From NCBI RefSeq assembly GCF_035917335.1, contig NZ_CP109067.1:6013001-6077000 (forward strand): a stretch of 64,000 nucleotides of DNA, read 5' to 3'. Shown in pieces: positions 9,451-34,706 of this stretch. Under the pieces are notes generated by a model. That model had not been told where the DNA came from. It was given only the letters and a program-made list of their open reading frames with translations, and did not search any database. Position 1 is the first letter of the stretch. Every line of letters begins with the position of its first letter. The DNA comes from Micromonospora sp. NBC_01813. GTDB taxonomy: Bacteria > Actinomycetota > Actinomycetes > Mycobacteriales > Micromonosporaceae. The position numbers and the translations under genes were made by a program.

Positions 9451-10443
9451 TCACCGCTGGGCCTCTCCCTCAAAGAGCAGCTCACCGGGGCGGATCACCT
9501 GATGCCGCAGCAGGCGCGCACCGGCCCGGACAAACAGGCTCTCATACTCCTCCATCGTGCGCAGCCGCCCGCCGGAGAAGACCATCAGCTGCAGATCCTT
9601 GAGTAGCGCGGGCAGCCCGGCGTCCGCGAGCACCTCGTCGACGACCAGCACCCGCTCTCCGTGCGCGAGGCAGCGGCGGATTAGCCGAGCTGAGTCGTCG
9701 TCGCTCCAGCTATGCACGACCGCCGACAGGAGATAGACATCTCCGTCAGTGGGCACACCAGAGCGGAAGTCTCCGGCGATGACGTCGCATCGGTCCGCGA
9801 CGCCTAACTCATCGAGCACGGAGGCCGCGCCCTCGACCGCGTACGGCAGATCGGTCAGCGTCCCACGCAGGTGCGGATGCCGGCCCAGGACCACACCGAG
9901 GATCGCACCCCGGCCGCCGCCGACGTCCACGAGATGCCGCGAGCCGGAGAAGTCGAACGCGTCCGCGATCGCCGCGCCGCGCAACCTCGCCTCGTCGGTG
10001 ACCCTCGACATCATCGTGTCGCCGGTGCCGGGCGTGCAGTCAAAATAGTCGAACGAGTTGGCGCCGTACTCGGTCTCGAACGCCGACATGCCGGAGCTGA
10101 CCGTCTCCAGTAACCGGCCCCACGGACCCCAGTGCCAGGGCTCGCCAACGGCGCGCACCCGCCCCCACTGCGAGCCCTCAGCAGCCTTGCGCAGCAACCG
10201 GCCGCGGTCCGTCAGCTCCTGCAGACCGCCGCACCCCTCGACGACCAGGCCCATCGCGCCCGCGACCCGCAGCAGGCGCCGCAGCGACGGCGGGTGGACA
10301 CCACAGCGGCCGGCCAGCGTATCGGGGGTGGCCGGGCCGGCGGCGAGCAGGTCGGCGACGCCCAACTCGGCGAAGACGTACAGCGCCTGGCTGAGCCGGT
10401 AGCCGAGCGCCACCGACCGGAGGTATGCGATATCGGACGTCAT
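9451..10443 (-). CDS. SAM-dependent O-methyltransferase
   Basis: 330 aa of the plant-type/acetylserotonin O-methyltransferase group. An N-terminal winged-helix dimerisation region (about 10-95) is followed by a Rossmann domain with L-V-D-V-G-G-G-R-G (about 168-176) and an acidic D-L-P-Y-A after strand 2. These enzymes methylate hydroxyl groups of small metabolites. ATG 10443 is chosen because GAGGGA lies 7 bases upstream; a TTG at 10446 is less likely. It is the last gene of the minus-strand operon, 4 bases after the carrier protein, so its substrate may be carrier-bound or a late intermediate. Confidence 0.88.
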   Translation of the reverse strand: MTSDIAYLRSVALGYRLSQALYVFAELGVADLLAAGPATPDTLAGRCGVHPPSLRRLLRVAGAMGLVVEGCGGLQELTDRGRLLRKAAEGSQWGRVRAVGEPWHWGPWGRLLETVSSGMSAFETEYGANSFDYFDCTPGTGDTMMSRVTDEARLRGAAIADAFDFSGSRHLVDVGGGRGAILGVVLGRHPHLRGTLTDLPYAVEGAASVLDELGVADRCDVIAGDFRSGVPTDGDVYLLSAVVHSWSDDDSARLIRRCLAHGERVLVVDEVLADAGLPALLKDLQLMVFSGGRLRTMEEYESLFVRAGARLLRHQVIRPGELLFEGEAQR

Positions 10444-10447
10444 CAAC

Positions 10448-10726
10448 TCATCCCTCCGCCGTCACGGGCGCCAACGGGGTAGCACCGGCGTCGGCCAGCA
10501 TCTTCCACAGGCCGCCGACGTTGGTGGTGACAAAGTCCATCAGCCTGTCGTCGGCGATCGTCACCGCGTACTCGCCCTCCAGGTCGAGCAGCAGGCTGAC
10601 GGTGGCCATCGAGTCGAGGCCGTGCTCGGCGAGGCTCATCTCCGGGGTGAGCTCGGCACCCTCGTCGATGGTCAGGTACGTGCGTAGCAGGTTCTCGAAG
10701 CCGGGCGGCCACCGTGTGTCGGTCAT
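10448..10726 (-). CDS. Free-standing acyl/aminoacyl carrier protein
   Basis: 92 aa with the phosphopantetheine site G-L-D-S-M (Ser39), the usual size and helical pattern of a carrier protein. It holds an acyl or aminoacyl group as a thioester. ATG 10726 overlaps the ligase stop by 4 bases (ATGA), so the two are translationally coupled, and the partnership of a tRNA-synthetase-like ligase with an adjacent carrier protein is known from amino acid:carrier-protein ligases. A longer frame to 10837 runs inside the ligase gene and is not used. Confidence 0.9.
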   Translation of the reverse strand: MTDTRWPPGFENLLRTYLTIDEGAELTPEMSLAEHGLDSMATVSLLLDLEGEYAVTIADDRLMDFVTTNVGGLWKMLADAGATPLAPVTAEG

Positions 10727-11919
10727 CGGGGATCCCCAAGCATCTCGGCGCGCAGCCGCGCGGGCCATCCGGCGATGTCGGCGCCGTACCGACAGAAGAA
10801 CGCGAAAGTAAGGCGCTCCAAGCCGAAACCGGCGCACGCGGTGTGCGCGATCGCGCCGTCCGGCAGCAGGATACCGTACGGCTCACCAAACGTGGTGCCG
10901 TGCACGTTGAAGGACGCGACCGAGATCATACGCCCCTGCTCGGCCGGTAGCCGCAGCTCGTACTTGAGCCGGTTGAGCCGCTGGGCCAGCGCTCGACGCG
11001 GCACGGCCGGACCGGCGAAGAACGGGTCTTCCGCCGACTCCGCAGTGCCAGCCAGACCCAGTTCCTCGGCCAGCTCGCAGGCGGCGGCCAGCATCTCCGC
11101 GCGTATCCCAGCGGCGGAGGCCTCGTCGCTGATAACGACGATCTCCCGGATCGTGAAGTCCCACAGCCGTTCCAGGGATCGGTGGTAGCGGGACTCGAAA
11201 CGGAAGGACTTGCCACGGGCGGTGATCACGGTGGTGCCGACGGGCAGCGTCTGGCCACTGAACTGTTTATACGTGTGGAAACACATCGTCGGTGGCAGGC
11301 AGTAGCCGGTGTGCGTGCCGTACCGCTGCAGCAGGTTGGCGGGATCGTCGCCACGCTCCAGCGCGGCCACGAACGCGCGGTAGACGTCGATGTCGGCACA
11401 AAGCCGTCCGGCCGACATGATCAACTGCGGGAAAGAGTTCAGATACCCGCCCCGACGCAGGGTGTCCGTACTGATCAGAGTGGGGTAGCGGTACTCCACC
11501 GCGCCGAACCGCTCGACCGCGATCCGGGTCACCCGGGCGTCCAGCGCCGCGAGCACGGTCGTGAACGGCGGTCCTACGGCGATCGCGCCGTCGCCCATCT
11601 GGTGCACGATCCCGCCCGTGACCAGCGCGTCGAAGACCCCGTCGGCCGGCTCCACTGCGTGCGGGGAGCGCCAGGCGACCTCGGGTGTGACGAGCCGCTG
11701 CGGCCGGACCTCGGCGTCGTTGACCTCGTCCAGCCGTCGGGCCAGCATCGCAGGGTCGGCGTCGCCGGTCGTGGTCACCCGGACCCCGACCACCTCGTCG
11801 CCGTGGTGAACCAGGTCGAATGTGTCGATGTCGGGGGCCAGGTAGTACACGCGTCGGGCGAGTTGCTCGCCGTGCGCCGCAGGGACCGGCCTGGCCAGCT
11901 CCACCACGTAAGTGGGCAT
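10723..11919 (-). CDS. Amino acid:[carrier protein] ligase (class II aaRS-like)
   Basis: About 398 aa. It resembles the catalytic domain of archaeal-type seryl-tRNA synthetases that lack tRNA-binding parts. Visible features: C-F-H-T-Y-K-Q-F (zinc Cys), R-F-E-S-R-Y-H (class II motif 2, with the zinc Glu) and T-A-C-A-G-F-G-L-E-R-L (zinc Cys plus motif 3). Known members (such as Bradyrhizobium Bll0957) activate Gly or Ala with ATP and load it on a dedicated carrier protein; here the carrier protein overlaps by 4 bases. Which amino acid is used cannot be read from sequence by eye. ATG 11919 has GAAGGTGA upstream; ATG 11937 is an alternative. Confidence 0.88.
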   Translation of the reverse strand: MPTYVVELARPVPAAHGEQLARRVYYLAPDIDTFDLVHHGDEVVGVRVTTTGDADPAMLARRLDEVNDAEVRPQRLVTPEVAWRSPHAVEPADGVFDALVTGGIVHQMGDGAIAVGPPFTTVLAALDARVTRIAVERFGAVEYRYPTLISTDTLRRGGYLNSFPQLIMSAGRLCADIDVYRAFVAALERGDDPANLLQRYGTHTGYCLPPTMCFHTYKQFSGQTLPVGTTVITARGKSFRFESRYHRSLERLWDFTIREIVVISDEASAAGIRAEMLAAACELAEELGLAGTAESAEDPFFAGPAVPRRALAQRLNRLKYELRLPAEQGRMISVASFNVHGTTFGEPYGILLPDGAIAHTACAGFGLERLTFAFFCRYGADIAGWPARLRAEMLGDPR

Positions 11920-11936
11920 GTCACCTTCTCGGATCA

Positions 11937-13076
11937 TCAGATCAGCGTGACCGACCTGTCTAACATGGACAAAACACCCACGCCGACCAGCAGCGCGTCG
12001 TTGGCGTGGTTGAGGCTCGCCGAGCGCAGGTCGCGGAAGTGCCGCTCCAGCGGGATGGGGGAGTTCCGCAGGTAGCCGGTCCGCAGACCGGCGATCTGGA
12101 TCAGCTGGTTGACTGCCTGAAAGGTCAGCTCCGAGGCAGCGATCTTCAGTGTGTTGAGTTGCAGGCGCACCTGCGAGCCGCTCAGCGAGGTGCCGTCGGT
12201 CCGGGCACGCTCGACCTCCTCGCGCATGCGGGTGAGGTAGGCGCTAACCAGTTCCAGCGACACCCGAACCCGGCCGATCCGGGCGTACTCCAGGTCCGAG
12301 CGGGCACCCCTGGCCTGCGCACGGACCACCTCGGCGAGCGCGCCGCGGGCCGTTCCCAGCCAACATGCCGACCAGCCCAGATGCGACAACGGCACCATCG
12401 ACTCCCGGGCCACCTCGGCGAAACGACCGGGTGCCCCGACCACGTGGTACCGCGGCACCGACCCCTTGAGCGTCATGCCGATGCTGGCGGTGCCGCGCAC
12501 CCCGAGGGAGTGCCAGTCGCTGGTGATCTCCGTCCGCAGGTCGCTGCGGTCGGCGTAGACCAGCGAGACCTCCGATTCGGCGGCGTCCGGCGCCGCCCGC
12601 ATGGTGACCAGGTAGCCGTCCGCGTGCTCGCCGCCGGTGACGACAGGCGCGCTGCGCTCGATGAGCAGCCGGTCGCCGTCGACGTGCAGCGGCGTGCCGG
12701 CGCTGAAGAGGTCCGCCTTGCGGCCCCGCTCGCTGGTCACAGACGCGATGTAGACTTCGCCGGCGGCGACCCGGGGGAGCAGGGCGGCGCGCAGCTCGGG
12801 CGTGCCGTGCCGGACGATCGCGTCGACCTGAAAGCAATGCATCGCCCAGATCTGCGCGGTCGACAGGCAGTGTGCGGCGAGACCCGTCGCCACCTCGACG
12901 AACGTGGCCAATTCCGCGCCCAGGCCGCCGTACTCGCCCGGGACCAGCAGGCCGAGCAGCCCGTGCGTGCGGATCGCGCTCATCGCCTCGCTGGGGAAGG
13001 TCGCGCTCTCGTCGTGCGAGGACGCGTGCGCACGCGCCACCGGCGCGACTGGCGCGAGCAACTCCTCGGCGCTCAT
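11937..13076 (-). CDS. Acyl-CoA dehydrogenase-like flavoenzyme
   Basis: 379 aa, a full-length acyl-CoA dehydrogenase fold: N-terminal helical domain with L-L-V-P-G-E-Y-G-G-L-G-A-E (about 49-61), middle beta domain with L-G-V-R-G-T-A-S-I-G (about 209-218), and C-terminal four-helix domain with Q-L-I-Q-I-A-G. In natural-product clusters such flavoproteins often oxidise substrates tethered to carrier proteins, for example prolyl- or seryl-carrier substrates. With the amino acid ligase and carrier protein directly downstream, an aminoacyl-carrier substrate is the natural proposal. It overlaps the pyruvate-kinase-like gene by 4 bases. Confidence 0.85.
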   Translation of the reverse strand: MSAEELLAPVAPVARAHASSHDESATFPSEAMSAIRTHGLLGLLVPGEYGGLGAELATFVEVATGLAAHCLSTAQIWAMHCFQVDAIVRHGTPELRAALLPRVAAGEVYIASVTSERGRKADLFSAGTPLHVDGDRLLIERSAPVVTGGEHADGYLVTMRAAPDAAESEVSLVYADRSDLRTEITSDWHSLGVRGTASIGMTLKGSVPRYHVVGAPGRFAEVARESMVPLSHLGWSACWLGTARGALAEVVRAQARGARSDLEYARIGRVRVSLELVSAYLTRMREEVERARTDGTSLSGSQVRLQLNTLKIAASELTFQAVNQLIQIAGLRTGYLRNSPIPLERHFRDLRSASLNHANDALLVGVGVLSMLDRSVTLI

Positions 13077-14110
13077 GACCCGGCCGCCGTGGCCTGGCCC
13101 CGCACATCGACGCCGTCGTGCTCGGTGCGTTCGATGATCCGGCGCAGTACGTCGACCACGTGCACCGGATGCCTGCCGTACCCGGTCTCGCCGGTCAGCA
13201 TGAACGCCGTCGCGCCGGTCTGGATCGCGTGCGCGACGTCGGCGACCTCGGCGCGGGTGGGCCGCAGGTGGGCGCGCATCGAGTACAGCACCTGGGTGGC
13301 AACCATGCCGGTCTTGCCGCGGGCGGCGCACGCGGCAAGGATCCTGCGCTGCGCGGCCGGCACGTCCTCGAACGGCAACTCCTGGCCCAGATCGCCGCGG
13401 GCGACTATCAGACCGTCGAACGCGTCGGCTAGGGCGTCCAAGCGCTCGAGTGCGGCCCTGCTCTCGACCTTGCCGATAACCATGGCCCGGTCGCCGGCCA
13501 GCGCCCGTACCGCCTCATGGTCCTGGGGCGTCTCGGCGAACGACAGGGCAACCTCCTCCACGCCGAGCTCCAGCGCGAAACGCAGGTCGTCGGCGTCCCG
13601 CTCGCTCAGCCCAGGCGTGAAGACGGTCGCGCCGGGCAACGTGACGCCCCGGCCATCGGTGACCGGCCCCCCATCGGCGACCACGCAGCGCAGCAGGCCA
13701 TGGCGCACCTCGCGTACGGTTAACACAATCGTCCCGTCGTCGATCAGGACCGTCGCACCAGTGCGGACCTTCGACGGGTTCCACGGGTGGGTGATCCAGG
13801 TGCGGTCCCCCGCGAGCGGACCGGGCCACGCGGTGAGCGTGACTTCGTCGCCGGTGGCCCAGTGCGACCGTCCGTCCAGAAACCCGCCGAGGCGGTTCTT
13901 GCGGCCCTGCAGATCGGCTAGCAGGCGCACCTTGCGGCCGTTCGCGGCGGCTGCCTCACGGACCATCCGGGCCGTGGCGCGGTGCCGGTCCCGGCTGCCG
14001 TTGCTCATGCTCAACCGGACCACGTCGATGCCGGCTGCGACCAGCCCGTCAACGCAGGCCGGGGTCTCGCTGATCGGCCCGAGCGTAGCGACGATCTCGA
14101 CGGTACGCAT
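13073..14110 (-). CDS. Short pyruvate-kinase-like protein without the C-terminal domain
   Basis: 345 aa, against about 470 for bacterial pyruvate kinases. It keeps the TIM barrel and B domain (L-I-D-D-G-T-I, about 122-128), the catalytic block G-K-V-E-S (Lys214, Glu216), V-A-R-G-D-L-G (Asp240), A-T-Q-V-L-Y-S-M and R-P-T-R-A-E, and ends where the allosteric C-terminal domain would begin. The usual R-x-N-F-S-H-G loop is R-L-S-M-S-N-G and D-T-K-G-P-E-I-R is D-L-Q-G-R-K-N-R, so cation and nucleotide binding probably differ. It may transfer a phosphate or use an enolpyruvyl substrate in the pathway; function not established. Coupled to both neighbours by 1- and 4-base overlaps. Confidence 0.8.
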   Translation of the reverse strand: MRTVEIVATLGPISETPACVDGLVAAGIDVVRLSMSNGSRDRHRATARMVREAAAANGRKVRLLADLQGRKNRLGGFLDGRSHWATGDEVTLTAWPGPLAGDRTWITHPWNPSKVRTGATVLIDDGTIVLTVREVRHGLLRCVVADGGPVTDGRGVTLPGATVFTPGLSERDADDLRFALELGVEEVALSFAETPQDHEAVRALAGDRAMVIGKVESRAALERLDALADAFDGLIVARGDLGQELPFEDVPAAQRRILAACAARGKTGMVATQVLYSMRAHLRPTRAEVADVAHAIQTGATAFMLTGETGYGRHPVHVVDVLRRIIERTEHDGVDVRGQATAAGS

Positions 14111-14871
14111 CACCGGTCCGCCCTTCGAACGCTGCACCGGTGGTACTCCCGGACGTAACCCTCCGGGTCGGTGACCTCGACTGGGGTCGCGCCGTGCAGG
14201 ATGCCGGCGCTGGGAAGGTTGTTGACGAAGAGGATCTCGCCGGGGCCGAGCGGGCCGACGTTGGCACCGCACTCGGCCAGCACCGCGGACTCGTGCTCGG
14301 CGCGCAGCACCGGCTTGCTGCCCGGAGTCGGCTCCTGCGACCAGTCGAAGAGGTCGGTGAAGCCAGCGCTGTGGAGGCCCATGTAGGCGCGTACATCGGC
14401 CAGCAGCAATGCGCCGCCGTCGAAGCCGGCCGTAGGGCCGTACAGGTGCGAGAAGATAAGCGCGTCGCGATCCATGTGCAGCTTCTTGAAGCTCCACGCA
14501 TTGCCGTAGAGCTCTAGCGGAATCGCTCCGTCGGCGATCACGTTCATCTTGACCTTGTAACCGTTCCCCGGCACCTCGTCGCCGGCGGCTGGCTCGACCA
14601 GCTCCCAGACCGCTGCGAAGAGCTCCTTGTGGAACTTCCTCGCCTCCGGTATGTCAGAGGTCGCGTCGAGGCCGGTCACCAGCGCGGCACCAGGGCCCCC
14701 GTCGCGCAGCAGACGGTCCCGCACCGCCACGGCCAGCGTGCCGGGATCCGGTTGCGAGCCGGCGTCGATCCGGATCGCCTCGACCGAGAGCGCGCCGGGT
14801 GGCTCAGGCAGACCGGCCATCGCGTCCAACGCAGCCCGGCGCATCGCCTGTATGTCTATCGTGGACTGCAT
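14110..14871 (-). CDS. Putative Fe(II)/2-oxoglutarate-type oxygenase
   Basis: 253 aa. It has an H-x-D motif (His132-Met-Asp134) in K-L-H-M-D-R-D-A-L-I-F, a later His226 in I-L-H-G-A-T-P, and an Arg (241 or 245) near the end. The order and spacing match the double-stranded beta-helix oxygenases of the TauD/clavaminate-synthase group, which hydroxylate or desaturate amino-acid-like substrates. Overall similarity to a named member is not obvious, so the call rests on this triad. The start ATG 14871 has GGAGAGG upstream; the stop overlaps the next ATG by 1 base. Confidence 0.6.
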   Translation of the reverse strand: MQSTIDIQAMRRAALDAMAGLPEPPGALSVEAIRIDAGSQPDPGTLAVAVRDRLLRDGGPGAALVTGLDATSDIPEARKFHKELFAAVWELVEPAAGDEVPGNGYKVKMNVIADGAIPLELYGNAWSFKKLHMDRDALIFSHLYGPTAGFDGGALLLADVRAYMGLHSAGFTDLFDWSQEPTPGSKPVLRAEHESAVLAECGANVGPLGPGEILFVNNLPSAGILHGATPVEVTDPEGYVREYHRCSVRRADR

Positions 14872-14886
14872 AATGATCCTCTCCGG

Positions 14887-15534
14887 TTAGGTGTTCAACA
14901 GCAGGTTTCGCAGTTTGCGCCGGACGTCGAGCTCGCTGCCAGTGCCGTCGACCAGGCGCAGCAGTCGGCACTCGTCGAAGTACGCGCCGACCTCGGCGAT
15001 CAGCCGCCGGAAGTCGTTGAGCCGGGCGGCCAGCGAATCCATCGCATCGTCGCCGCGCCGGGTGACCGGCCCGCCGCAGGTCGCGCAGCCCGGCGCTGGT
15101 CCAACCGGCACGGGCCGGCCGCAGGCGGCACAGATCCGTCGGTCCGCGACCCGGGACCAAACCAGGTCGTCGGGCACATCGACCACGACGAACGCGCCGA
15201 CCCGCGCCCCAGCCGCCTCGACAACCTTCTCGAAGTCGACGCACTGGGCCTGGTCCCGGGGGTAGCCCTCCACCGCCACGACCTGAACGCCGCCCGGCAG
15301 CCGGGCGAGGAAGTGGGCGAACTCCTCACGGACCACGTCGTTGGCCAGCAGCCGCCCGCGCAGCAGCGAGTCGCGCATGGCGAGGCCGAGCGGATTACCA
15401 GCCGCAGCCAGGTCGAGACCGTAGTCGCGGACGCCGAACCGGGCCAGCCAGTCATGCTCGTCGGCCAGCGACAGCAGAGCGGTCGTCTTTCCCGCCCCAG
15501 GCGGCCCGGTGACTGGGCAGACACGCACCTTCAC
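14887..15534 (-). CDS. Adenylate-kinase-like P-loop protein with zinc-type lid
   Basis: 215 aa. A Walker A motif G-P-P-G-A-G-K-T-T (residues 10-18) is followed by helical parts and a lid-like segment with two C-x2-C pairs (C-A-A-C-G and C-A-T-C-G-G, about 138-159), as in zinc-bearing adenylate kinases. It may phosphorylate a nucleotide or a small-molecule phosphate, or act as a general P-loop kinase on a pathway intermediate. GTG 15534 overlaps the radical SAM stop by 4 bases (GTGA). A housekeeping adenylate kinase is unlikely in this location and sequence form. Confidence 0.72.
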   Translation of the reverse strand: MKVRVCPVTGPPGAGKTTALLSLADEHDWLARFGVRDYGLDLAAAGNPLGLAMRDSLLRGRLLANDVVREEFAHFLARLPGGVQVVAVEGYPRDQAQCVDFEKVVEAAGARVGAFVVVDVPDDLVWSRVADRRICAACGRPVPVGPAPGCATCGGPVTRRGDDAMDSLAARLNDFRRLIAEVGAYFDECRLLRLVDGTGSELDVRRKLRNLLLNT

Positions 15535-16817
15535 AGCTTGACCCCGTGCTCGGCCAGCATCGTCCACGCCTGGTGCAGCAGCGCGGCATCTCCGGTGACC
15601 CGGCCCTCAGCCATGTGCAGGTCGAGGGCACGGAGCATGGCGTACATCCGCTTCTGCGGGGTGTCGAGCAGAAGCTCGGTGAGGTGGTAGAGCTGGTTGG
15701 TGTCGGACGCGACCCGCACCGCCTCCGGAAAGGCCGGCGCGATCAGCCCAGCCAACGACTGCGGGCCCTCGTCGACCAGGTAGACAGTGATCGGGTCGGC
15801 GTAGAGGAACGTGATCGCGTCGTCCCATCCGGAGACCCGGCGCACGTCGGGACAACGGCGCGGGTCGTTGCCCTCCAGAATGCGCACCGAGCCGTCGTCC
15901 AGGATCAGGCATGCCAGGCCGTCGAGGTGCTTGACCGTCGGCCCGTTGTAGGTGCGGGCCGGCACGTGCTTGCCGGCGTCGTCGACGAACCGCTTGCCAA
16001 AGACATCCGCGTGCGACTCGGTGGGCAGACTGACCGGCAGCCGGTTGAGCTTGCGCTGGTTCATCCGCCCCTCGACGATCAGATTCTTGTAGTAGACGAG
16101 CACGCTCCGGCCGTCCGGAAGCCGAATCTCCTGCTGGTAGTCCTCCAGCGCGCTCAACTCGCCGCCGAGCCGCTTGGCCAGGTCCGGCATGGTGCTGTCA
16201 CCGTCGAGCAGCACCGAGCGGAGGTAGCAGCCGACATCGCTCATCTCCGACTCGCCGAGCATCTCGATCACCCGGGCGGCCGGCTCGACGCCGATCCGCT
16301 GCGCGTGGAACCAGTCAAGGCTGATCCGGATCGCGAAGGCTGCCGTTGTCAGGTGTGATCCACGGGTACGCCACGCGTCCACCAGACCGCTCAGGCGCCG
16401 CCGGGTCTCGGCCGCGTCGGCGGCGAAGTGCGCACTGGTGATCAGCTCTATTTCCTCCAGGTCCGGCGAGTCGATCTCGTTCACGAACCGCTCGCAGAAC
16501 TCTGGCTCCACCATTGGCTCGCCGCCGCCGGAGAGCACCGCCTTCCACAGTCGCATCCCGTTCATCACCCGCAGCACCGGCTCCGGATCCCGGGCCACGG
16601 TGTAGCGGGTCAGCCGGTCTAGCGACATCGGCGAGGCGTAGTTGCAGTGACCACAACCGACCGGGCATTCCGACGACGGCCAGACGTAGCATGTCGAGGC
16701 ATGCACTGGACCGTGCCGGCGGTACGGTGTCAACGAGTCGATGATGGAATCACGAAGCCGGTCGAGCGGCTGGCGCGCAGGCGTGAGCGCGATCTGTCTG
16801 AACAACGAGTCCGGCAA
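15531..16817 (-). CDS. Radical SAM enzyme
   Basis: 428 aa. The [4Fe-4S] cluster motif C-x3-C-x2-C is at Cys51, Cys55 and Cys58 (E-C-P-V-G-C-G-H-C-N-Y), followed by S-G-G-G-E-P (about 95-100), the SAM-binding GGE motif. No extra SPASM-type cysteine cluster is obvious in the C-terminal half. Radical SAM enzymes start difficult C-H chemistry such as epimerisation, methylation, cyclisation or rearrangement; the substrate is not evident. TTG 16817 is the first available start, with purine-rich GGAAAGAGAG upstream. It lies in the middle of the coupled operon. Confidence 0.85.
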   Translation of the reverse strand: MPDSLFRQIALTPARQPLDRLRDSIIDSLTPYRRHGPVHASTCYVWPSSECPVGCGHCNYASPMSLDRLTRYTVARDPEPVLRVMNGMRLWKAVLSGGGEPMVEPEFCERFVNEIDSPDLEEIELITSAHFAADAAETRRRLSGLVDAWRTRGSHLTTAAFAIRISLDWFHAQRIGVEPAARVIEMLGESEMSDVGCYLRSVLLDGDSTMPDLAKRLGGELSALEDYQQEIRLPDGRSVLVYYKNLIVEGRMNQRKLNRLPVSLPTESHADVFGKRFVDDAGKHVPARTYNGPTVKHLDGLACLILDDGSVRILEGNDPRRCPDVRRVSGWDDAITFLYADPITVYLVDEGPQSLAGLIAPAFPEAVRVASDTNQLYHLTELLLDTPQKRMYAMLRALDLHMAEGRVTGDAALLHQAWTMLAEHGVKL

Positions 16818-16842
16818 GACGCTCTCTTTCCGTTCGTCGTGG

Positions 16843-18006
16843 TCAACCCAGGGATCGTGGCCCTGGGACTTTGCTGCGCGCCGCCACCTCGTCGATTCGG
16901 CGCGGGTCGAAGAGACGCTCGGCGAAGGTGCGCTTCCACGTGAACCGGCCGCCGTCGAAGGCGCCGTACTCGTTCAGGTAGGCCGTATCGGCCGGCCGGA
17001 ACTCGTCAACGAGCTTCTCCGGTACCAGATCGGGATAGAGCTGCCAGGTGTGCACGAGCGAGTAGTAGGCACTGGCCCCGCAGTTGAACCTCGCCACCCG
17101 GGCGCGCAGGTCGTCAAGCGTCTCCGGGCTCGCGGCCAGTAGCAGGTGCACGAGGTCGAGGAAGTTGCGAACCAGCAGGTCCTTGCCGCTCTCGATGTAG
17201 TAAAAGAGCGTGGCCCGTAGATGGATCTGGATGCAGGCGTCGAGGATCTGATCGGCCGGGTGCAGCATGCGGGCCGGCACGCCGTACAGGCTGATCAGCA
17301 CACTCCGGTCGAGGAAGCCGTCGGCGTCGTCTCTAATGTCGAGCATCGGCTGAAAGAGGCTGAACATGGCCGAGACCAGGTACGACTCGACCAGGTCACG
17401 GTCACCGACCCGGGCGTACGGCAGCGACGTGTTGGTGAGGTTGACCTTCCAGTAGAGCTCGGTGCGCCGGTCGAACGGCACGATCGACGAACCGGTGGCA
17501 TCCAGCTCGCCCGTCCGGTAGCCGAGGCCGGTCACGACTTCCTGCAGCCTCGGGTAATCACTGCGGCGCAGAAAGACGTCGATGTTAGAAATCCGTCGTG
17601 CGGCCTGGTCGTGGTAGTAGTGCTCGCCAAGCACTGGGCCCTTGCGGATCAGGTAGCGCACGGCAGCGGTGTTGAGGGCGCGCAGAACGCGGGCGTACTC
17701 GTCGGCCAGCACCTGGTTGCGTCGCCGGCTCCCTTCGTAGACGTCCGAATAGATCCACCGGTACGGCACGAGCGGCTTGCCCGCGTCGGAGTGGGTCAGC
17801 CGCAGCCTGGAGAGGTGCCGGCCGATCAGCGGCAGCATCTGGTGGCGGCACGCCTGGTCGAGGAACTCGCCCCAGTCGATTTCGGTGCCGTGTGCGGCCA
17901 GGAATGCGCGGATCTCTTGCTGTTTTTCGATGGACAGGTCGGGCCTCGATAGCGCGAGCAGCAATTCGTGTTCGTGGCGCAATGAACCGAGCGCTGTTGT
18001 CTCCAT
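16843..18006 (-). CDS. NTP_transf_5-family nucleotidyltransferase-like protein A
   Basis: 387 aa. The region Y-L-I-R-K-G-P-V-L-G-E-H-Y-Y (about 131-144) and I-S-N-I-D-V-F-L-R-R-S-D-Y (about 151-163) matches the NTP_transf_5 family (nucleotidyltransferase fold, common in peptide natural-product clusters). The usual D-x-D pair is N-I-D here, so one metal ligand is missing and catalysis may be lost or altered. A second member (protein B, 19037-20407) keeps D-L-D; the two could act together. ATG 18006 or GTG 18009 follow GGGAG. The function of these proteins in clusters is not settled. Confidence 0.68.
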   Translation of the reverse strand: METTALGSLRHEHELLLALSRPDLSIEKQQEIRAFLAAHGTEIDWGEFLDQACRHQMLPLIGRHLSRLRLTHSDAGKPLVPYRWIYSDVYEGSRRRNQVLADEYARVLRALNTAAVRYLIRKGPVLGEHYYHDQAARRISNIDVFLRRSDYPRLQEVVTGLGYRTGELDATGSSIVPFDRRTELYWKVNLTNTSLPYARVGDRDLVESYLVSAMFSLFQPMLDIRDDADGFLDRSVLISLYGVPARMLHPADQILDACIQIHLRATLFYYIESGKDLLVRNFLDLVHLLLAASPETLDDLRARVARFNCGASAYYSLVHTWQLYPDLVPEKLVDEFRPADTAYLNEYGAFDGGRFTWKRTFAERLFDPRRIDEVAARSKVPGPRSLG

Positions 18007-18074
18007 CACCAGAACTCCCGTCGCGGGTGGCGAAAAGCCGTGCGTCTGTCAAACCGATTCAGATATGTGTGTCG

Positions 18075-19040
18075 TCATGTCGAGAGGAATTCCTCGTGCA
18101 GCAAGGCCAGGATTTCGGCGGCCTTTTCCGCCTCGGCCACGGTCGCGCCGGAGAAGGAAAGCCTTATCGACGCGACGTCGCTGAGGAATGCGCGGCCGGG
18201 CGAGACCATCACGCCGTGCCGGGTCAGCGCGTCGACGGTTTCGGGTTCGGGCCGGGTGATCTCCAGCAACAGGGACGGACCGCCGCCGGTGATCGTCCAG
18301 CCGGTGAGGTCGTGCATCCGGCCGGTGAAGGTGCGCCGCGCATCGAGGGTGGGCTCCACGCACTCCTGCCGTAGCGTCCGCAACGTCGCCGGGGTCAGGA
18401 AGTCCGCCCAGGCCCGCTGCCATGCGGTCGGCGGTGCACCGGCCGTGGACTCCCAGCCCAGGGCGGCGTCCTCGGGGGCGGTCACCCAGCCGAGCCGGAC
18501 ACCGCCGCCCGCGATCTTCGCCAGCGACGTCACCGTCCATGCCCCGTCCGACGCGACATGTTCGTCGGCGTACCAGCGGTAGACCTCGTTTATGACCACG
18601 GTGTGTCCGCCAGCGACCAGCGCTCGGATGACGCCCGCGTCCAGTGATCGGCCGTCCGGATTGCGGAACGGGCTGGTGAGCCAGATCGTGACCGGCTCGG
18701 ACCGCGCGGGAAGCGCCTCCCACGCCGCGCAGACGACCGGCCCCCGGGCACCGATGATCTCCGGTATGTCAGCGAACGTGGGCGTCTCGACCACTGTGAC
18801 TGTCGGGACTGTCGGCCGCCCTGCCCAGGCCGACGCGAACTGCCGCACCCCCGAGACGACCGCTGTGCGCTCCGGCGGTGCCCCGGCGAGCTCGGCCAAC
18901 TGGTCGAGCAGCGCCGGCTCCCCTTGCGGCGCGGGCGTGCGCCACCAGGACGTCGCGCGCAGAGCGCGCTCGTGCGCCGCGGCGAAGCGGGCCACCAGTC
19001 GCTCCGGCCATGGGCGGATCGGCCCCGTGAGGTCGATCAT
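18075..19040 (-). CDS. PLP-dependent aminotransferase-like enzyme (fold type I)
   Basis: 321 aa. The PLP lysine is Lys175 in T-S-L-A-K-I-A-G-G-G-V-R-L-G-W, the standard S-x2-K...R-x-G signature of class I/II aminotransferases. Two departures: the conserved D-E-x-Y, whose Asp contacts the PLP ring nitrogen, reads I-N-E-V-Y (Asn151), and N-P-x-N-P-T-G reads S-P-F-R-N-P-D-G. At 321 aa it is shorter than most class I enzymes (about 390). The Asn change suggests chemistry other than plain transamination, or a weakened enzyme. It overlaps the upstream gene by 4 bases. Confidence 0.8.
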   Translation of the reverse strand: MIDLTGPIRPWPERLVARFAAAHERALRATSWWRTPAPQGEPALLDQLAELAGAPPERTAVVSGVRQFASAWAGRPTVPTVTVVETPTFADIPEIIGARGPVVCAAWEALPARSEPVTIWLTSPFRNPDGRSLDAGVIRALVAGGHTVVINEVYRWYADEHVASDGAWTVTSLAKIAGGGVRLGWVTAPEDAALGWESTAGAPPTAWQRAWADFLTPATLRTLRQECVEPTLDARRTFTGRMHDLTGWTITGGGPSLLLEITRPEPETVDALTRHGVMVSPGRAFLSDVASIRLSFSGATVAEAEKAAEILALLHEEFLST

Positions 19041-20407
19041 TGCGTGCGGACCGCCGCCGCCGCCCGGGCCTGGCGGATCACGTCGGCGGACAGGTCGTAC
19101 TCGACGGTGCCGACAAAGAACTCGTCGCCGACCCGGAAGTACATACCGGCGGCGGTGTCGAACCGCTCGAACTCCTTATCGCCGCCGATGAAGCTGCTGG
19201 CCGGATTGGTGTACGCCGCCTCGCCGGGCTGTTCCAACAGGCCCGTCGCCATCTTTAGCGGAACCAGACGCACGCAGGTCCACGGATTCCACTCGGCAGC
19301 CCGGGCATTGCGCCCGCCGCCGGGCACCGCGCGCAGCTGCAACCGTTTGCGGTAGTAGGAGAACGCGTTAGCCGCCGTCCGACCGGCCGCGATCACGCCC
19401 GCGTCCCGGCGCACGGCGAAGGCATGCAACGTGGTACCCAGGCAGCGCAGGGTCCAGCTCGGCGCGTCCGGCCGTGGCGGCGGCTCTACGGTCAACGCCA
19501 GCGGGATCTCGCGGAAGCGCCGTTCCTGCTCCTCGGTCAGCACCGTCGTCTCGCGCAGCGTGCGGATCATGAAGCCGAGGAAGCCGTCGAGCCGCGCCTG
19601 GCGGATCAGGCCCAAGAAGCGGGGTAGGTCAAAACCCGGCGCCGTGATACCCAGCAGCAGGTCGTTGGTGTCCTTCGCGGTCACGAAGTAGTCGCCGGCC
19701 GCGTTGTTAACCACGCAGGCCAGGTTGTCCTCCGGGGCGAGAAGGTGCAGGCCGGGGGTGTCCCGGGTGAGGCTACCGGCGATCCGCAGCCGGCCGCAGT
19801 GGCGGACCGAGTAGTCCCCAAAGTGGATATCGATGTTCAGCATGTCGCCGGCCCCTGGCGGCGCCACGTGGGCGATCTGGCCGTACACCATGCCGTCGGA
19901 AGGGTCGACCTTGAGCCAGGGCAACTCGTTGTTCTGGAATGTGTAGCCGAACTCGCCGCGTAGCACCGCGGCGAGTCGGAACGCGTCGGTGTGGTTACCG
20001 ACGAACAGGTCGAGATCGTTGAAATCGCGGATCGACCGGTCCGGGTACCTCGTGTGAGCCACGAGCCCCTTGCCGACGACAATTGCCAGCCCGGTGTCGC
20101 GGGCCACGCGTTCGAGCTGGTCCAGGTTGGCTTGCAGTACCGTGTGCATGTGGGCCAGCGAGGTGACCTTCGTCGCCAGAGCGGCCTGGCAGTCGCGCAC
20201 GGCGTTATTCGGCGACGGCAGGTCGCCGAGCCGGCGGCTGACCAGCGTGCGCATGCGGAGTGTGTGGATGAATCGGCTCGCCTCGGCGGCACCGAGGGCG
20301 TCGATCGCTGCGACGGACCGCTCGATGGTGAAGAGCGGCTGGACGCTGGCGAGACTGCGCAATGCGCGCAGATGTGCGATTCTCTCCGACCTTTTCAATG
20401 CCGACAA
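19037..20407 (-). CDS. NTP_transf_5-family nucleotidyltransferase B
   Basis: 456 aa. V-V-G-K-G-L-V-A-H-T-R-Y-P-D-R-S-I (about 118-134) and N-D-L-D-L-F-V (about 138-144) are the conserved core of NTP_transf_5 proteins, with the D-x-D metal site intact, unlike protein A. This family has a nucleotidyltransferase fold and often appears in ribosomal and nonribosomal peptide clusters; substrates are unknown. TTG 20407 has GGGGG immediately before it, too close to serve as its ribosome-binding site, so TTG 20398 (9 bases after GGGGG) is a good alternative. First gene of the long minus-strand operon. Confidence 0.75.
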   Translation of the reverse strand: MSALKRSERIAHLRALRSLASVQPLFTIERSVAAIDALGAAEASRFIHTLRMRTLVSRRLGDLPSPNNAVRDCQAALATKVTSLAHMHTVLQANLDQLERVARDTGLAIVVGKGLVAHTRYPDRSIRDFNDLDLFVGNHTDAFRLAAVLRGEFGYTFQNNELPWLKVDPSDGMVYGQIAHVAPPGAGDMLNIDIHFGDYSVRHCGRLRIAGSLTRDTPGLHLLAPEDNLACVVNNAAGDYFVTAKDTNDLLLGITAPGFDLPRFLGLIRQARLDGFLGFMIRTLRETTVLTEEQERRFREIPLALTVEPPPRPDAPSWTLRCLGTTLHAFAVRRDAGVIAAGRTAANAFSYYRKRLQLRAVPGGGRNARAAEWNPWTCVRLVPLKMATGLLEQPGEAAYTNPASSFIGGDKEFERFDTAAGMYFRVGDEFFVGTVEYDLSADVIRQARAAAAVRTQ

Positions 20408-21020
20408 CCCCCGTTGGCTCTGCTGCTCTGTTTGAACGTGTTACATGCCCCGAAAATGGCGTGCCGCATGCCTGAACGACCTTAAGGTCACGCGAACTGT
20501 TTCTGGGAAGCATTGGTCTTCGCGGGCGGTCGCGCCACTGAGGACGGTTCTCGTCCAATATTGGGGCTTGACGTAAGCGCACCTACGGCTGCAACTACCG
20601 CCCGCAAGGTCTGAATCGAACGTTTCCGGGTGGTGGGTCACCTCCATTTCCCAGGAGAACGCATTAACAAGGAAACGTATCGACGATCCTGACTGAAAGA
20701 TTAGCATGCCTCTTAGGCGACGGCAAGCACTTGATCGTCGCCGATGCGCCGAACCCGTATCCCGACACACTTTCTGCTTGATGGTGGGGCTTCCCGAGCT
20801 GATCTTGAACCCCGAGACGGGTGCAGGGCCGCATCCATCCCGCAGTGCCTCGGCACCTCACGCGGCCCCGGGTCGGTGTCCGGCCGCTGACGCCTCCGGG
20901 TCAGCGTGAGTCCGACCGCACGCCCCGACGCCGGCCACTTCGTGTCACGCACGGGTGCCGCCGAGCACCATCCCTGTAGGATCTGGCCGCCCGCCGGGTG
21001 GCGGCCGTACCCTGCCACCT
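20408..21020. other. Divergent intergenic region (613 bp) between the large operon and the HAD gene
   Basis: No convincing gene. The stretch 20480-20720 has lower GC than the surroundings and probably carries the promoter of the minus-strand operon, but I could not place its boxes with confidence. On the plus side, TACCCT at 21008-21013 ends 7 bases before ATG 21021, a possible leaderless promoter for the HAD gene; TAGGAT at 20976-20981 is an alternative. Confidence 0.45.
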
Positions 21021-21674
21021 ATGACGATTCGGCGGGCACCACGCGGCGCGGTCGTGTTCGACTGCGACAACACACTTGTCGCCACCCTCGGGGCCTGGGA
21101 GCGGGCCTACAAGGCGCTGTTCGCCGGGTGCGGACGCGTCTTCGACCCGGCTGTCCACCTGCGAGGACTGGTCGGTATGCCGCTGGAGCCACTCGGGCAC
21201 GCGCTCGCGACGCTGCTCGACCGGCACGGCGAGCACGCTGCGCTGAGCGCCGGCATGGTTGCCCTGCTCACCGCCGACGAGATCCGGCCGATGCCGGACG
21301 CGGTGGAGCTGATCGCCGCGCTGCGCGGCAGCCGGCCGCTGGCGGTCGCGTCCAACACGCCACGGGTGATCGTGTGGCATTACCTGGCCGCTGTGGGGCT
21401 GGCCCAGGCATTCGACGCGGTGCTCGGCTGCGACGACGTCGCCGCGCCGAAGCCCGCGCCGGACATCTACCAGGCGGCGTGCGCACTCCTCGGCGTCGAC
21501 CCGACCGATGCGGTCGCGGTGGAGGACTGCCCGTCCGGGCTCGCGGCCGCGAGCCGGGCCGGTCTCTTCGTGATCCGGGTTGGCGAGACCGCCGCGCCGG
21601 CGGATCTGGCGGTCGCCAACCTCGGCGACCCAGCGCTGTGGCGGGCGCTCGGCCTGCCCGCCGCACAGTCGTAG
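21021..21674 (+). CDS. HAD-superfamily phosphatase (PGP/beta-PGM-like)
   Basis: 217 aa. Motif I is V-V-F-D-C-D-N-T-L-V (catalytic Asp pair about 14-16), motif II is A-V-A-S-N-T-P (Ser/Asn about 113-114), the lysine is in A-A-P-K-P-A-P-D (about 149), and motif IV is A-V-E-D-C-P-S-G (about 174). It should remove or move a phosphate on a small molecule. With a pyruvate-kinase-like and an adenylate-kinase-like protein in the neighbouring operon, a phosphorylated intermediate in this pathway is plausible. ATG 21021 is preferred over the upstream in-frame 20955 because of the domain start and the TACCCT box. Confidence 0.85.
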   Translation: MTIRRAPRGAVVFDCDNTLVATLGAWERAYKALFAGCGRVFDPAVHLRGLVGMPLEPLGHALATLLDRHGEHAALSAGMVALLTADEIRPMPDAVELIAALRGSRPLAVASNTPRVIVWHYLAAVGLAQAFDAVLGCDDVAAPKPAPDIYQAACALLGVDPTDAVAVEDCPSGLAAASRAGLFVIRVGETAAPADLAVANLGDPALWRALGLPAAQS

Positions 21675-21705: not shown

Positions 21706-22620
21706 CTACGTGATCCTGCCGAAAGGCCCTTCGATGTCCAACCCGTCAAGCGCCGCACGCACCTGCCGTACGGCCCAGGCGTCAAGTCTGTTCCCGTCCA
21801 GTCGCAGAATCCGCGCGCCGGCGAGAGCCGAAGGGTGGACCTCAGATGTGTCCGGCCCGAGGCCGAGCACGCGACCGGCCTTGAAGTTCCAACGGTCGGG
21901 TAGTTCCCCGACCCGGATCAGATCGCGTAGCTCCCACAACGCAATCGAGAGGCTGAGTTCGTCCTTGGTGAACATCGAGGGTCGCGTGAGTGCGCCGAGC
22001 ATACGACGATGCAGCTCCAACCACCGGTTTCCGAGCAGCCGCAGCGCGTTGCCTGACCCGTAGACCACGTCACTGTCCCAGCCTCTGAGCTCGCCCATCA
22101 CCGAAACGGGCAGGGAGAGGGCGTATGTCTCGTTCAGAAGGCGGATGGCGATCTCCTTGTTGATCTCCGGATCGTCGAAATAGCGCTGTCTGTTCGCCCA
22201 CACCGTCGGCTCCGGCCGGTGCGGGACCATGAACACGTCGGCCTGACCACCCAGCTGTTGATCAAGCTCGGTCTCGACGTCACCGACGTCGCCGAGCACC
22301 AGGCTTTCCTTGTCCAGATAGAGATATCGATCATGACTCGTCCGAACAAGCGACTTGATTTTCAGTAGTTGGGCGGATATCGACTCTCGCTCGGCCGGCG
22401 ACGGCGCCCACACGTTCTCCGTGCCGGTGACGACCCGCTCCAGGTGCAACGCCAGCACCGGCGCGAGGAGCTGCAACCCCGGGCTTGCCTCGTCGATGTA
22501 CACCGTGACCGGGACGTGCGGATTGTGCTGTCGCAACGACGCGACGGCGGCGGCGGCGAAGGCAACGATGGTTGGGCCGCTCACCAGCCCCACCCCGAAC
22601 GACGTACCGATCGGCCTCAT
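21706..22620 (-). CDS. GT8-like glycosyltransferase or nucleotide-sugar-fold protein
   Basis: 304 aa. A-A-A-A-V-A-S-L-R-Q-H-N-P-H-V-P-V-T-V-Y-I-D (about 22-43) and R-Y-L-Y-L-D-K-E-S-L-V-L-G-D-V (about 97-111) resemble the GT-A fold of family 8-like glycosyltransferases. The usual D-x-D is L-D-K-E-S here, so metal binding may differ. It would attach a sugar to the product or an intermediate. A TAGGGT box ends 7 bases before ATG 22620, supporting this start. It converges on the HAD gene, with 31 bases between the stops. Confidence 0.6.
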   Translation of the reverse strand: MRPIGTSFGVGLVSGPTIVAFAAAAVASLRQHNPHVPVTVYIDEASPGLQLLAPVLALHLERVVTGTENVWAPSPAERESISAQLLKIKSLVRTSHDRYLYLDKESLVLGDVGDVETELDQQLGGQADVFMVPHRPEPTVWANRQRYFDDPEINKEIAIRLLNETYALSLPVSVMGELRGWDSDVVYGSGNALRLLGNRWLELHRRMLGALTRPSMFTKDELSLSIALWELRDLIRVGELPDRWNFKAGRVLGLGPDTSEVHPSALAGARILRLDGNRLDAWAVRQVRAALDGLDIEGPFGRIT

Positions 22621-22627
22621 GCCTGGC

Positions 22628-22633
22628 ACCCTA
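22628..22633 (-). promoter_or_regulatory. -10 box (TAGGGT) of a probable leaderless promoter
   Basis: On the minus strand TAGGGT is followed by 7 bases and ATG 22620, the same geometry as before the PSP1 gene. Confidence 0.45.
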
Positions 22634-22796
22634 TCCCCCACCGAGGCCGCGAAGTAGGCACCGCCTGCCGCAAGACGGCGTCGTACTCCGGCCCGGGGAT
22701 CGTGATCACGGCAGGATGAGGGCCCGTCGGGTGGGACGGCCCCTCCGACGGACACCCTCCCGAGCTGCCCACAGCCCCTCCGGCCTGGGACGTCCG

Positions 22797-23021
22797 TCAA
22801 ATCGGGTCAGCCTGGTCGGCCATAGCTCGGCGCAGGCTCGCCGGCCGCATGTCAGTCCAGCGCCGCTCCACGAAGGCGAGGCAGTCCGCCCGGTCGCTCT
22901 CGCCGTGTACCCTCGTCCAGCCCTCCGGAACCTGCGCGAACGCCGGCCACAACGAGTACTGTCCCTCGTCGTTCACCAGCACCAGGTAACGGCCGGTCTC
23001 GTCCTCGAACGGGTTGGTCAT
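22797..23021 (-). CDS. MbtH-like protein
   Basis: 74 aa with the family pattern [22 protein letters not shown] and W-T-D-M-R-P-A-S-L. MbtH-like proteins bind and activate NRPS adenylation domains, so it should serve NRPS1 and NRPS2. ATG 23021 has AGGTG 5 bases upstream. The intergenic gap of 241 bases to the condensation gene (23263) holds no visible gene. A decayed second MbtH-like sequence may lie between the NRPS genes. Confidence 0.95.
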
Positions 23022-34679: not shown

Positions 34680-34706
34680 CACCGCGCCACCAGGAAGGAC
34701 TTGCTC

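Follow-up and report, generated by a model that had tools for sequence, protein, structure and literature searches.

The Locus and Its Surroundings

The stretch of DNA analyzed here (the window) comprises 64,000 nt of Micromonospora sp. NBC_01813 (Actinomycetota; Mycobacteriales; Micromonosporaceae), positions 6,013,001–6,077,000 of the forward strand of NZ_CP109067.1 in assembly GCF_035917335.1. Eleven minus-strand genes form an operon at 9451..20407, beyond which the cluster extends to about 39554:

9451..10443, minus strand, O-methyltransferase (PF00891, 115.8 bits)
10448..10726, minus strand, carrier protein with a GLDSM motif (PF00550, 32.6 bits)
10723..11937, minus strand, long-form SerRS-like amino acid–[carrier protein] ligase (PRK07080, 164.9 bits, cut-off 357; 3mey, E 2e-34)
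11937..13076, minus strand, acyl-CoA-dehydrogenase (ACAD)-fold flavoprotein without the catalytic glutamate positions (PF02771, 60.4 bits; PF08028, 32.9 bits; PF00441, 23.2 bits)
13073..14110, minus strand, pyruvate-kinase-like (PK-like) protein without the C-terminal domain (PF00224, 248 bits)
14110..14871, minus strand, putative Fe(II)/2-oxoglutarate (2OG) oxygenase (OX; H132-x-D134 ... H226)
14887..15534, minus strand, adenylate-kinase-like (AdK-like) P-loop kinase with a Cys4 zinc-lid motif (PF00406, 48.7 bits)
15531..16817, minus strand, radical SAM enzyme (CxxxCxxC), 428 aa (Pfam, 21.7 bits)
16843..18006, minus strand, NTP_transf_5 protein NTP5b (PF14907, 90.9 bits, cut-off 31.2)
18075..19040, minus strand, PLP enzyme, CobD/aminotransferase class I/II like, possible decarboxylase (PF00155, 41.7 bits)
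19037..20407, minus strand, NTP_transf_5 protein NTP5a, 456 aa (PF14907, 41.8 bits, cut-off 31.2)
20955..21674, plus (divergent) strand, HAD-family hydrolase, possible phosphatase (PF00702, 94.3 bits)
21706..22800, minus strand, protein without a match in the Pfam or NCBIfam profile searches
22797..23132, minus strand, MbtH-like protein (PF03621, 98.5 bits)
23263..24696, minus strand, stand-alone condensation (C) domain (PF00668, 73 bits)
25434..29507, plus strand, NRPS C-A-T-TE (A-domain code DVWHFSLIDK)
29631..34679, plus strand, NRPS A-T-C-A-T (codes DILQVGVVWK and DAQLAAYVVK)
34701..35528, plus strand, PhyH-family oxygenase (PF05721, 118.9 bits)
35704..37635, plus strand, ABC1, exporter half with fused ATPase (homolog in 11/11 loci)
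37632..39554, plus strand, ABC2, partner exporter half (homolog in 11/11 loci)

The operon is confirmed as real. The original prediction had described most of its genes as coupled by 1- or 4-base overlaps, and such overlaps were indeed found at 6 of the 10 junctions (NTP5a/PLP enzyme, radical SAM/AdK-like, OX/PK-like, PK-like/ACAD-fold, ACAD-fold/ligase, and ligase/carrier protein); the count drops to 5 of 10 should translation of the ligase begin at its second ATG, in frame at 11919, close to where similarity to its homologs sets in. The other four junctions have gaps of about 68, 25, 15, and 1–4 bases. All 11 reading frames are intact and in coding phase. The original prediction overlooked the NRPS, the lone C domain, and the ABC exporters next to the operon.

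Membership of the HAD hydrolase in the cluster is uncertain: the related composites compared hold no match to it, and a generic HAD (33%) lies about 10 kb from the Actinacidiphila core. The MbtH-like protein is likewise without a match in those composites. Judged by eye, the 21706..22800 protein may resemble a family-8 type glycosyltransferase. The lone C domain is 31% identical to that of the Longispora cluster. Reading the adenylation codes by eye against reference codes, we take DVWHFSLIDK to specify Ser and DILQVGVVWK Gly, and know of no match for DAQLAAYVVK; the predicted NRPS product would be Gly-X-Ser.

Conservation across Related Loci

Eight further genomes were found by searching with the radical SAM protein alone, and a smaller form of the cluster occurs in two Micromonosporaceae genomes (G867 and G887). 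The 11 loci compared are thus nine radical SAM loci, the window included, and these two small clusters. A conserved core (radical SAM, AdK-like, 2OG-oxygenase-like, PK-like, ACAD-fold, carrier protein, NTP_transf_5, and the ABC pair) is nearly whole in the eight other actinomycete loci, at identities of 47–73% (30–53% for the carrier protein). Because the core genes recur together in eight further genomes, their co-occurrence, for which the original prediction had suggested a search, is beyond chance, and the cluster family is rare but recurrent.

OX, NTP5b, ABC1, ABC2, the carrier protein, and the ACAD-fold gene are each present in 11/11 loci; the Longispora carrier protein is counted from looser searches and gave no match at the stricter limit of the 11-locus comparison, and the ACAD-fold gene of G867/G887 is only 35% identical to that of the window. 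The radical SAM, AdK-like, and PK-like genes each occur in 9/11. In this comparison, the clusters of Kutzneria and Amycolatopsis lack the PK-like gene, and those of G867/G887 lack the radical SAM and AdK-like genes but keep OX, PK-like, and NTP5b; therefore, one fixed sequence of steps cannot account for all the clusters. A loading enzyme is found in every locus, as a long ligase (three loci), a stand-alone A domain (six), or a short ligase (two). It has been exchanged between clusters, while most of the kinase/oxygenase/nucleotidyltransferase kit has been kept; both a loading enzyme and the ABC pair belong to the conserved set. OX immediately precedes the PK-like gene wherever both occur (9/9 loci). 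In 8/11 loci, NTP5b is next to the ABC pair.

The O-methyltransferase and NTP5a are confined to ligase-type clusters, with homologs in L045 and L051 (for NTP5a in these two only, at 55–56%), where the PLP enzyme also has homologs. Among the nine radical SAM loci, eight have a decarboxylase-like PLP gene (CobD-like in three, Orn/Lys/Arg type in two, LysA-like in three) and six a stand-alone C domain, which Pfam detects in the window, L045, L047, L049, and L051 and sequence similarity in L046. Streptomyces MJM8645 has a large NRPS at a distance of about 20 kb from its core.

Probable Loading of the Carrier Protein

The ligase has a class II SerRS-like catalytic core and no match in the Pfam search; because its PRK07080 score falls below the curated NCBIfam cut-off, it represents a divergent subfamily. 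Aligned to 3mey, it has the zinc ligands Cys, Glu, and Cys, at positions that we take from Bradyrhizobium Bll0957, and these are kept in 9/9 long-form ligases aligned. It thus shares with the Bll0957-type amino acid–[carrier protein] ligases the core, the three zinc ligands, and a partner carrier protein; the conserved zinc ligands and its adjacency to that carrier support the earlier notion of a dedicated aminoacyl thioester. It differs from them in its score, in an additional N-terminal region of about 100 aa, and in being embedded in an operon with kinases and a radical SAM enzyme. In an order-wide survey, the ligase has an ACAD-fold gene no more than about 1.5 kb away in at least 11 of the 29 other loci read.

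By analogy, the amino acid loaded may be serine, with L-serine the likeliest candidate. Of the eight further loci examined that encode a long-form ligase, seven have a 3-hydroxyacyl dehydrogenase plus an ACAD, resembling the aminomalonyl-ACP cassette; serine is suggested because long-form ligases sit in such cassettes, of which the zwittermicin one has a seryl-AMP synthetase as its loader (PMC6395733). The stand-alone A domains of other clusters have, by eye, non-serine pocket codes, so that either serine is wrong or those clusters load another amino acid. Ligases of the core clusters also have HG where aminomalonyl-type ligases have HE, which counts against the pathway favored below.

The Oxidative Enzymes

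The ACAD-fold protein has the family's domain architecture, and its aligned residues are H/Y/F and S/G at the SCAD/MCAD and IVD positions of the catalytic glutamate, the IVD position being one that we assigned by equivalence. In both small clusters its 35% relative lies one gene from a flavin reductase (PF01613, Pfam-tested in G867). Because both glutamate positions are non-Glu and a flavin reductase is near this relative, the protein is more likely a flavin monooxygenase than a dehydrogenase, contrary to the dehydrogenase-type oxidation on the carrier originally proposed. Group D flavin monooxygenases (DszC, a nitrososynthase, and DnmZ) have an ACAD fold without the catalytic Glu, and its PDB matches include all three (5xb8, 3mxl, and 4zxv). 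They differ in that they are not its best-scoring matches, acyl-CoA dehydrogenases (93.4 bits) scoring above DszC (79.0 bits), a point against our preferred explanation, and in that its substrate is probably carrier-bound.

OX has no Pfam or NCBIfam match; H132, D134, H226, and R241/R245 are invariant in nine sequences, and this motif, its HxD...H triad assigned by eye, suggests an Fe(II)/2OG enzyme, for which support from the double-stranded beta-helix fold is weak. The radical SAM enzyme has the CxxxCxxC motif and fold and scores under the Pfam gathering cut-off of 29.5; it is divergent.

Kinase-like Proteins, NTP_transf_5 Proteins, and the PLP Enzyme

In a phylogenetic tree the PK-like proteins, which lack the C-terminal domain, form a clade apart from eight housekeeping-type pyruvate kinases (support 100/100). 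K214, E216, D240, R32, and T272 are invariant among them and have been aligned to 5wrp; we take these to be the catalytic Lys, the metal-binding Glu and Asp, the phosphate-binding Arg, and a catalytic Thr. The window's protein (345 aa) covers positions 2–336 of the 476 of TIGR01064 and scores 318.7 against a curated pyruvate kinase cut-off of 306.4; ordinary pyruvate kinase activity is therefore possible, which counts against the favored pathway. The AdK-like protein keeps the P-loop, the Cys4 lid, and a DGFPR-xxx-Q type motif (first D replaced by E), and scores under the NCBIfam adk cut-off (80.1 against 168). A separate adk is carried elsewhere in the genome. Using what we take to be the adenylate kinase numbering, equivalents of R88 and Q92 are retained, whereas the AMP contacts T31 and R36 are changed to V and to L (M in L051) in the four sequences aligned. 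The Q92 equivalent suggests a nucleotide acceptor, again a point against the favored pathway. Phosphorylation by this kinase group is plausible; in the open-licence PMC literature searched, no role of pyruvate kinase or adenylate kinase duplicates in such pathways was found.

The two-Asp metal motif of NTP_transf_5 proteins is D-h-D. NTP5a keeps it in 3/3 loci, as D-L-D in the window; NTP5b has N-I-D in the window where most others have D-L-D, and N-h-D in all three ligase-type clusters. The N-I-D of the window's protein counts against the favored pathway. No paper naming PF14907, a domain of unknown function, was found in the open-licence literature searched. The PLP enzyme scores 32.4 bits against the CobD model, far under its cut-off of 290.55.

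A Possible Pathway

From the observed gene set, its integrity, conservation, domain families, and motifs, we tentatively propose, at somewhat less than even confidence, that the operon is the core of a specialized-metabolite cluster whose carrier protein bears an amino-acid unit that becomes oxidized and phosphorylated. Judging from the families, the ligase would activate the amino acid, most likely L-serine, and pass it to the carrier protein; the ACAD-fold flavoprotein would oxygenate the bound residue at N or C, with no desaturation; the 2OG-type oxygenase would hydroxylate it; and the radical SAM enzyme would add a further change, dispensable in the smallest clusters. More speculatively, the PK-like protein might phosphorylate the hydroxyl or N-hydroxyl so formed, perhaps drawing the phosphate from PEP, the AdK-like protein might put a second phosphate on the first, and the NTP_transf_5 protein(s) might cap it with a nucleotidyl or glycosyl group. 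The lone C domain, equally speculatively, might transfer the unit to an amine, either the PLP-enzyme product or, in this genome, the Gly-X-Ser NRPS peptide, and the ABC pair would export the product. The order of the steps and their substrates are also speculative. Against this pathway, the search for a lone C domain found none in Streptomyces MJM8645 and SPB162 and, in Amycolatopsis, a candidate that Pfam does not match; that of Kutzneria reads, by eye, ARFAVDG at the expected catalytic His motif. The fullest version, in which a PEP-dependent PK relative adds phosphate to a carrier-bound amino acid hydroxylated at N or C, an AdK relative makes the diphosphate, and NTP_transf_5 caps it, yielding a family of amino-acid metabolites that carry a nucleotidyl- or glycosyl-diphosphate and have interchangeable loaders, we consider decidedly unlikely.

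The original prediction knew of no described pathway with this gene set, and none was found in the open-licence PMC literature searched. Butirosin side-chain biosynthesis uses an aminoacyl-ACP, a LysA-like decarboxylase, and flavin monooxygenase logic, to which the SPB162 and Streptantibioticus clusters may be likened; its ligase is of a different type (ATP-grasp), and we know of no kinases or radical SAM enzyme acting on that side chain. The kinase PsmK of pseudomycoidin is of the HPr-like family and is neither a pyruvate nor an adenylate kinase. PsmK and then the annotated nucleotidyltransferase PsmN act on a serine of this lasso peptide (PMC9266682); the pairing of a kinase gene with a nucleotidyltransferase gene offers a precedent for our proposal, although the peptide is ribosomal.

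Alternative Explanations

The second building block might instead be a modified nucleotide: the radical SAM enzyme and 2OG oxygenase would alter an NMP, the AdK-like protein would make the diphosphate, the PK-like protein (PEP + NDP) the triphosphate, and NTP_transf_5 would transfer the altered nucleotidyl group to a carrier-made amino acid or peptide. We regard this as unlikely: G867/G887 lack the radical SAM and AdK-like genes yet keep OX, PK-like, and NTP5b, two residues of the NMP pocket (T31 and R36) differ, and the window proteins scanned include no nucleoside-biosynthesis enzyme. A little less probable is transient phosphorylation of serine or a hydroxyamino acid, the phosphate then leaving in an elimination or a ring closure (to a dehydroamino acid, cyclopropane, aziridine, or N-N bond), with NTP_transf_5 providing self-resistance. 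Hydroxylation followed by phosphorylation is a general route to leaving groups, and the invariable OX/PK-like order and the frequent adjacency of NTP5b to the ABC pair fit it; but the scan of window proteins identified neither a dedicated cyclase nor a lyase, and two kinases plus, in ligase clusters, two NTP_transf_5 proteins exceed the needs of one leaving group.

That the flavoprotein is a true aminoacyl-carrier dehydrogenase of the prolyl-carrier type, its unit being a desaturated amino acid as first proposed, seems improbable. The fold, the best solved relatives, and weak matches to the models for RedW (48.6 bits, cut-off 650) and PigA (33.7 bits, cut-off 500), both far under threshold, speak for it, whereas the replaced glutamates, the best named NCBIfam models (FadE16 and SfnB), and the flavin reductase by the G867 homolog speak against it. 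Hardly credible is a zwittermicin-like aminomalonyl-ACP type extender pathway: the ligase subfamily is shared and a carrier protein is present, but no 3-hydroxyacyl dehydrogenase match exists in L045–L052 or among the window proteins scanned, which also include no polyketide synthase, and the ACADs of L045–L052 match the window type at 53–71% and the aminomalonyl type at 22–27% or not at all. With the zwittermicin cassette (PMC6395733), the cluster shares a loader probably specific for serine, a carrier protein, and an ACAD-fold enzyme, the last of a different family; no 3-hydroxyacyl dehydrogenase match and no PKS was found.

Significance

In this cluster family, the loading step is interchangeable and most of a kinase/oxygenase/nucleotidyltransferase kit is constant, a kit that holds duplicates of pyruvate kinase and adenylate kinase, PF14907, and a divergent radical SAM enzyme. 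With 11 loci, two of them having a minimal gene set, the family is testable. The identity of the product could assign a function to PF14907 and could show whether glycolytic kinases get drawn into natural-product chemistry. If the proposed carrier-bound pathway is true, two kinases of central metabolism would have been re-used as natural-product tailoring enzymes.

The operon and the extent of the cluster

The genome that holds the window is a single contig of 7.63 Mb. Reading of the sequence found the operon's eleven genes to be intact, all on one strand and with real reading frames:

9451..20407, minus strand: eleven-gene operon encoding an O-methyltransferase (OMT), carrier protein, ligase, acyl-CoA-dehydrogenase-fold (ACAD) flavoprotein, pyruvate-kinase-like protein (PK-like), oxygenase (OX), adenylate-kinase-like protein (AdK-like), radical SAM protein, NTP5b, PLP enzyme and NTP5a (NTP5a and NTP5b being NTP_transf_5, PF14907, proteins)
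14110..14871, minus strand: OX, a putative Fe(II)/2-oxoglutarate oxygenase

The same reading places overlaps of 1 or 4 bases at six of the ten junctions, or at five if the ligase starts at the ATG at 11919; at the remaining junctions the genes stand about 68, 25, 15 and 1-4 bases apart. Pfam and NCBIfam searches assigned the other operon proteins to families and gave no match for OX. Chance assembly or decay of the operon is ruled out by the intact frames together with the core common to other loci.

The minus strand continues upstream with genes for a lone condensation domain, MbtH and a protein without a family match, and a HAD hydrolase diverges from the operon. The plus strand carries, in order, an NRPS (C-A-T-TE), a second NRPS (A-T-C-A-T), a gene for a PhyH protein and the genes for the two halves of an ABC exporter (ABC1, ABC2). 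No modular NRPS was matched in the composites of the ligase-type clusters of Actinacidiphila and Catenulispora. The adenylation domain codes, compared by eye with what we take to be the reference codes, suggest Ser for the first NRPS and Gly plus an unknown residue for the second. Because ABC1 and ABC2 are part of the core conserved at other loci, the cluster here extends over at least 9451-39554 and encloses the NRPS genes. Neither HAD nor MbtH was matched in the related composites, except for a generic 33% HAD match about 10 kb from the Actinacidiphila core. An IS4-family transposase at 4093-5361, some 4 kb past the operon's end, is a possible sign that the region is mobile.

Conservation and rarity of the core

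When the radical SAM protein was used to scan a collection of 84,980 species once, 16 stretches matched, eight of which encode a relative (69-73%). Their neighbourhoods were compared as 61-kb composites (51 kb for Catenulispora), together with 40 kb from each of two genomes of the window's family (G867 and G887), which have a smaller form of the cluster and were found via a second pyruvate-kinase-like copy. With the window counted, OX, NTP5b, ABC1, ABC2, the carrier protein (for Longispora, counted from separate comparisons) and an ACAD-fold gene (homologs of just 35% in G867 and G887) are present at all 11 loci. The radical SAM and AdK-like proteins occur at nine of the 11, as does the PK-like protein, missing from Kutzneria and Amycolatopsis; NTP5a, the CobD-like PLP enzyme, OMT and the long ligase occur at three (window, Actinacidiphila, Catenulispora).

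The core cluster family is rare. The window's own genome was the only one with OX among 298 genomes of the order, and the only one with the OX profile or the radical SAM protein among 396 of the phylum, although rare clusters escape samples of 298-396 genomes, as the 84,980-species scan shows. A second pyruvate-kinase-type gene (E 1e-60 or better) was found in 4/354 family genomes (the window's, G867, G887 and G811, which shares contig coordinates with the Longispora genome of locus L046 and is counted once) and in none of the six other genomes of the genus.

In Streptomyces sp. SPB162 the radical SAM gene (L050:10001-11294) is read in two overlapping frames, possibly a frameshift or sequencing error. 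Near the core, Kutzneria (L073:14844-18488) and SPB162 (composite 41365-47139) share a second gene set, comprising an ornithine-decarboxylase-like protein, DUF6271 and two proteins that by eye resemble PhyH and an MFS transporter.

Spread of the core by plasmids is rejected: OX had no match in a plasmid collection, and the radical SAM and ligase relatives found there lie in other contexts. The former is a single 24% match on a Rhizobium plasmid; the latter, at 45-54%, are on three Streptomyces plasmids, where the 33 kb read held no radical SAM, AdK, OX, PK or NTP5b. On a Streptomyces anulatus plasmid (L086:15085-17152) a 38% NTP5b relative adjoins an inositol monophosphatase family gene, and such a gene is also near the radical SAM relative of the Rhizobium plasmid (L085:13959-17152).

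The loading enzyme and its amino acid

Comparison with a solved relative gives the window ligase a SerRS-like core, and the three positions that are presumably zinc ligands are kept in all nine aligned long-form ligases. Stand-alone adenylation domains occur at six other core loci; they are of two kinds, and Amycolatopsis has both. The ligase of G867 and G887 is short (in G867 it scores 282.9 bits with PRK07080). SerRS-like amino acid--carrier ligases were found in 43 of 298 genomes of the order, with an ACAD-fold gene beside the ligase in at least 11 of the 29 loci read.

Eight long-form ligase loci outside the core family were taken, namely the best five of the order survey after the window's own (genomes G286, G076, G069, G126 and G015) and the best three Streptomyces plasmid matches. 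Seven of them (L032, L034, L036-L037, L038, L039-L040, L088 and L089) carry a 3-hydroxyacyl dehydrogenase (HADH) and an ACAD of aminomalonyl type. At G015 the matches reach no more than 31-33% and the dehydrogenase lies some 6 kb off, and the NBC_01237 long-form ligase locus has neither HADH nor ACAD of this type. In zwittermicin, an aminomalonyl-ACP cassette is reported to be loaded by a seryl-AMP synthetase (PMC6395733); in the aminomalonyl-type loci, the long-form ligase is likely a SerRS-derived alternative to such loading. By this analogy, our first guess for the amino acid loaded by the window ligase would be serine, a guess weakened by an HG-for-HE change in the aligned core-cluster ligases and by sister-cluster A-domain codes unlike serine's. 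A zwittermicin-type aminomalonyl unit is itself disfavoured, there being no HADH match at the eight loci L045-L052 or among the window proteins scanned, and an ACAD of other type.

The flavoprotein and the kinase-like proteins

The original prediction had the ACAD-fold protein oxidise a substrate on the carrier as a dehydrogenase. Its best named models, FadE16 and SfnB, fall far under cut-off, and among solved relatives acyl-CoA dehydrogenases score best (93.4 bits), ahead of DszC (79.0), prolyl-ACP dehydrogenase (63.7) and a nitrososynthase (50.8), so that by scores alone the dehydrogenase name would be favoured. In alignment to solved relatives, however, H/Y/F stand where the SCAD-type glutamate would be, and S/G at what we take to be the equivalent IVD-type position. 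The loss of both glutamates, and a flavin reductase one gene from the 35% homolog in G867, lead us to read the protein as a putative monooxygenase; with the glutamates missing, dehydrogenation on the carrier is not the first choice. Between the reductase and this homolog, G867 encodes a 370-aa protein (L081:14970-16082) without a Pfam match, perhaps an acyl transferase that stands in for the lone C domain; a suspected likeness to BtrH found no Pfam support.

In a tree of nine PK-like and eight housekeeping-type sequences, the PK-like proteins group as a separate clade (support 100/100). They keep the catalytic residues, lack the C-terminal domain and differ at sites that include N34S in 8/9 and P70R, I72N and K154R in 9/9, yet still score above the curated NCBIfam cut-off for pyruvate kinase. 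The AdK-like protein keeps the P-loop, a Cys4 lid and what we take to be the equivalents of R88/Q92, but not those of T31/R36. Separate pyruvate kinase and adenylate kinase copies exist elsewhere in the genome. The hydroxylamine-kinase side activity of pyruvate kinase and a guanitoxin-like N-O-phosphate are both candidate ideas for the pathway. Sequence searches of the PDB gave no significant relative of OX, the radical SAM protein or NTP5b, and an OX model had no Foldseek match at E 0.001.

The proposed pathway

In the open-licence PMC literature, we found no cluster with this gene set, which does not prove its absence in print, no known product by producer names and no paper on PF14907. Loading and amine-supplying enzymes differ between clusters; the kit that is kept suggests that a substrate, carrier-bound or a nucleotide, is oxidised, phosphorylated and then capped by NTP_transf_5. 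A precedent is pseudomycoidin, in which a kinase and then a nucleotidyltransferase homolog are reported to act on serine (PMC9266682). The two leading readings differ chiefly in the substrate that the kinases would use. That a modified nucleotide serves as a second building block is rather unlikely; the better-placed reading, which we hold tentatively, is that an oxidised, phosphorylated amino-acid unit would be made on the carrier protein.
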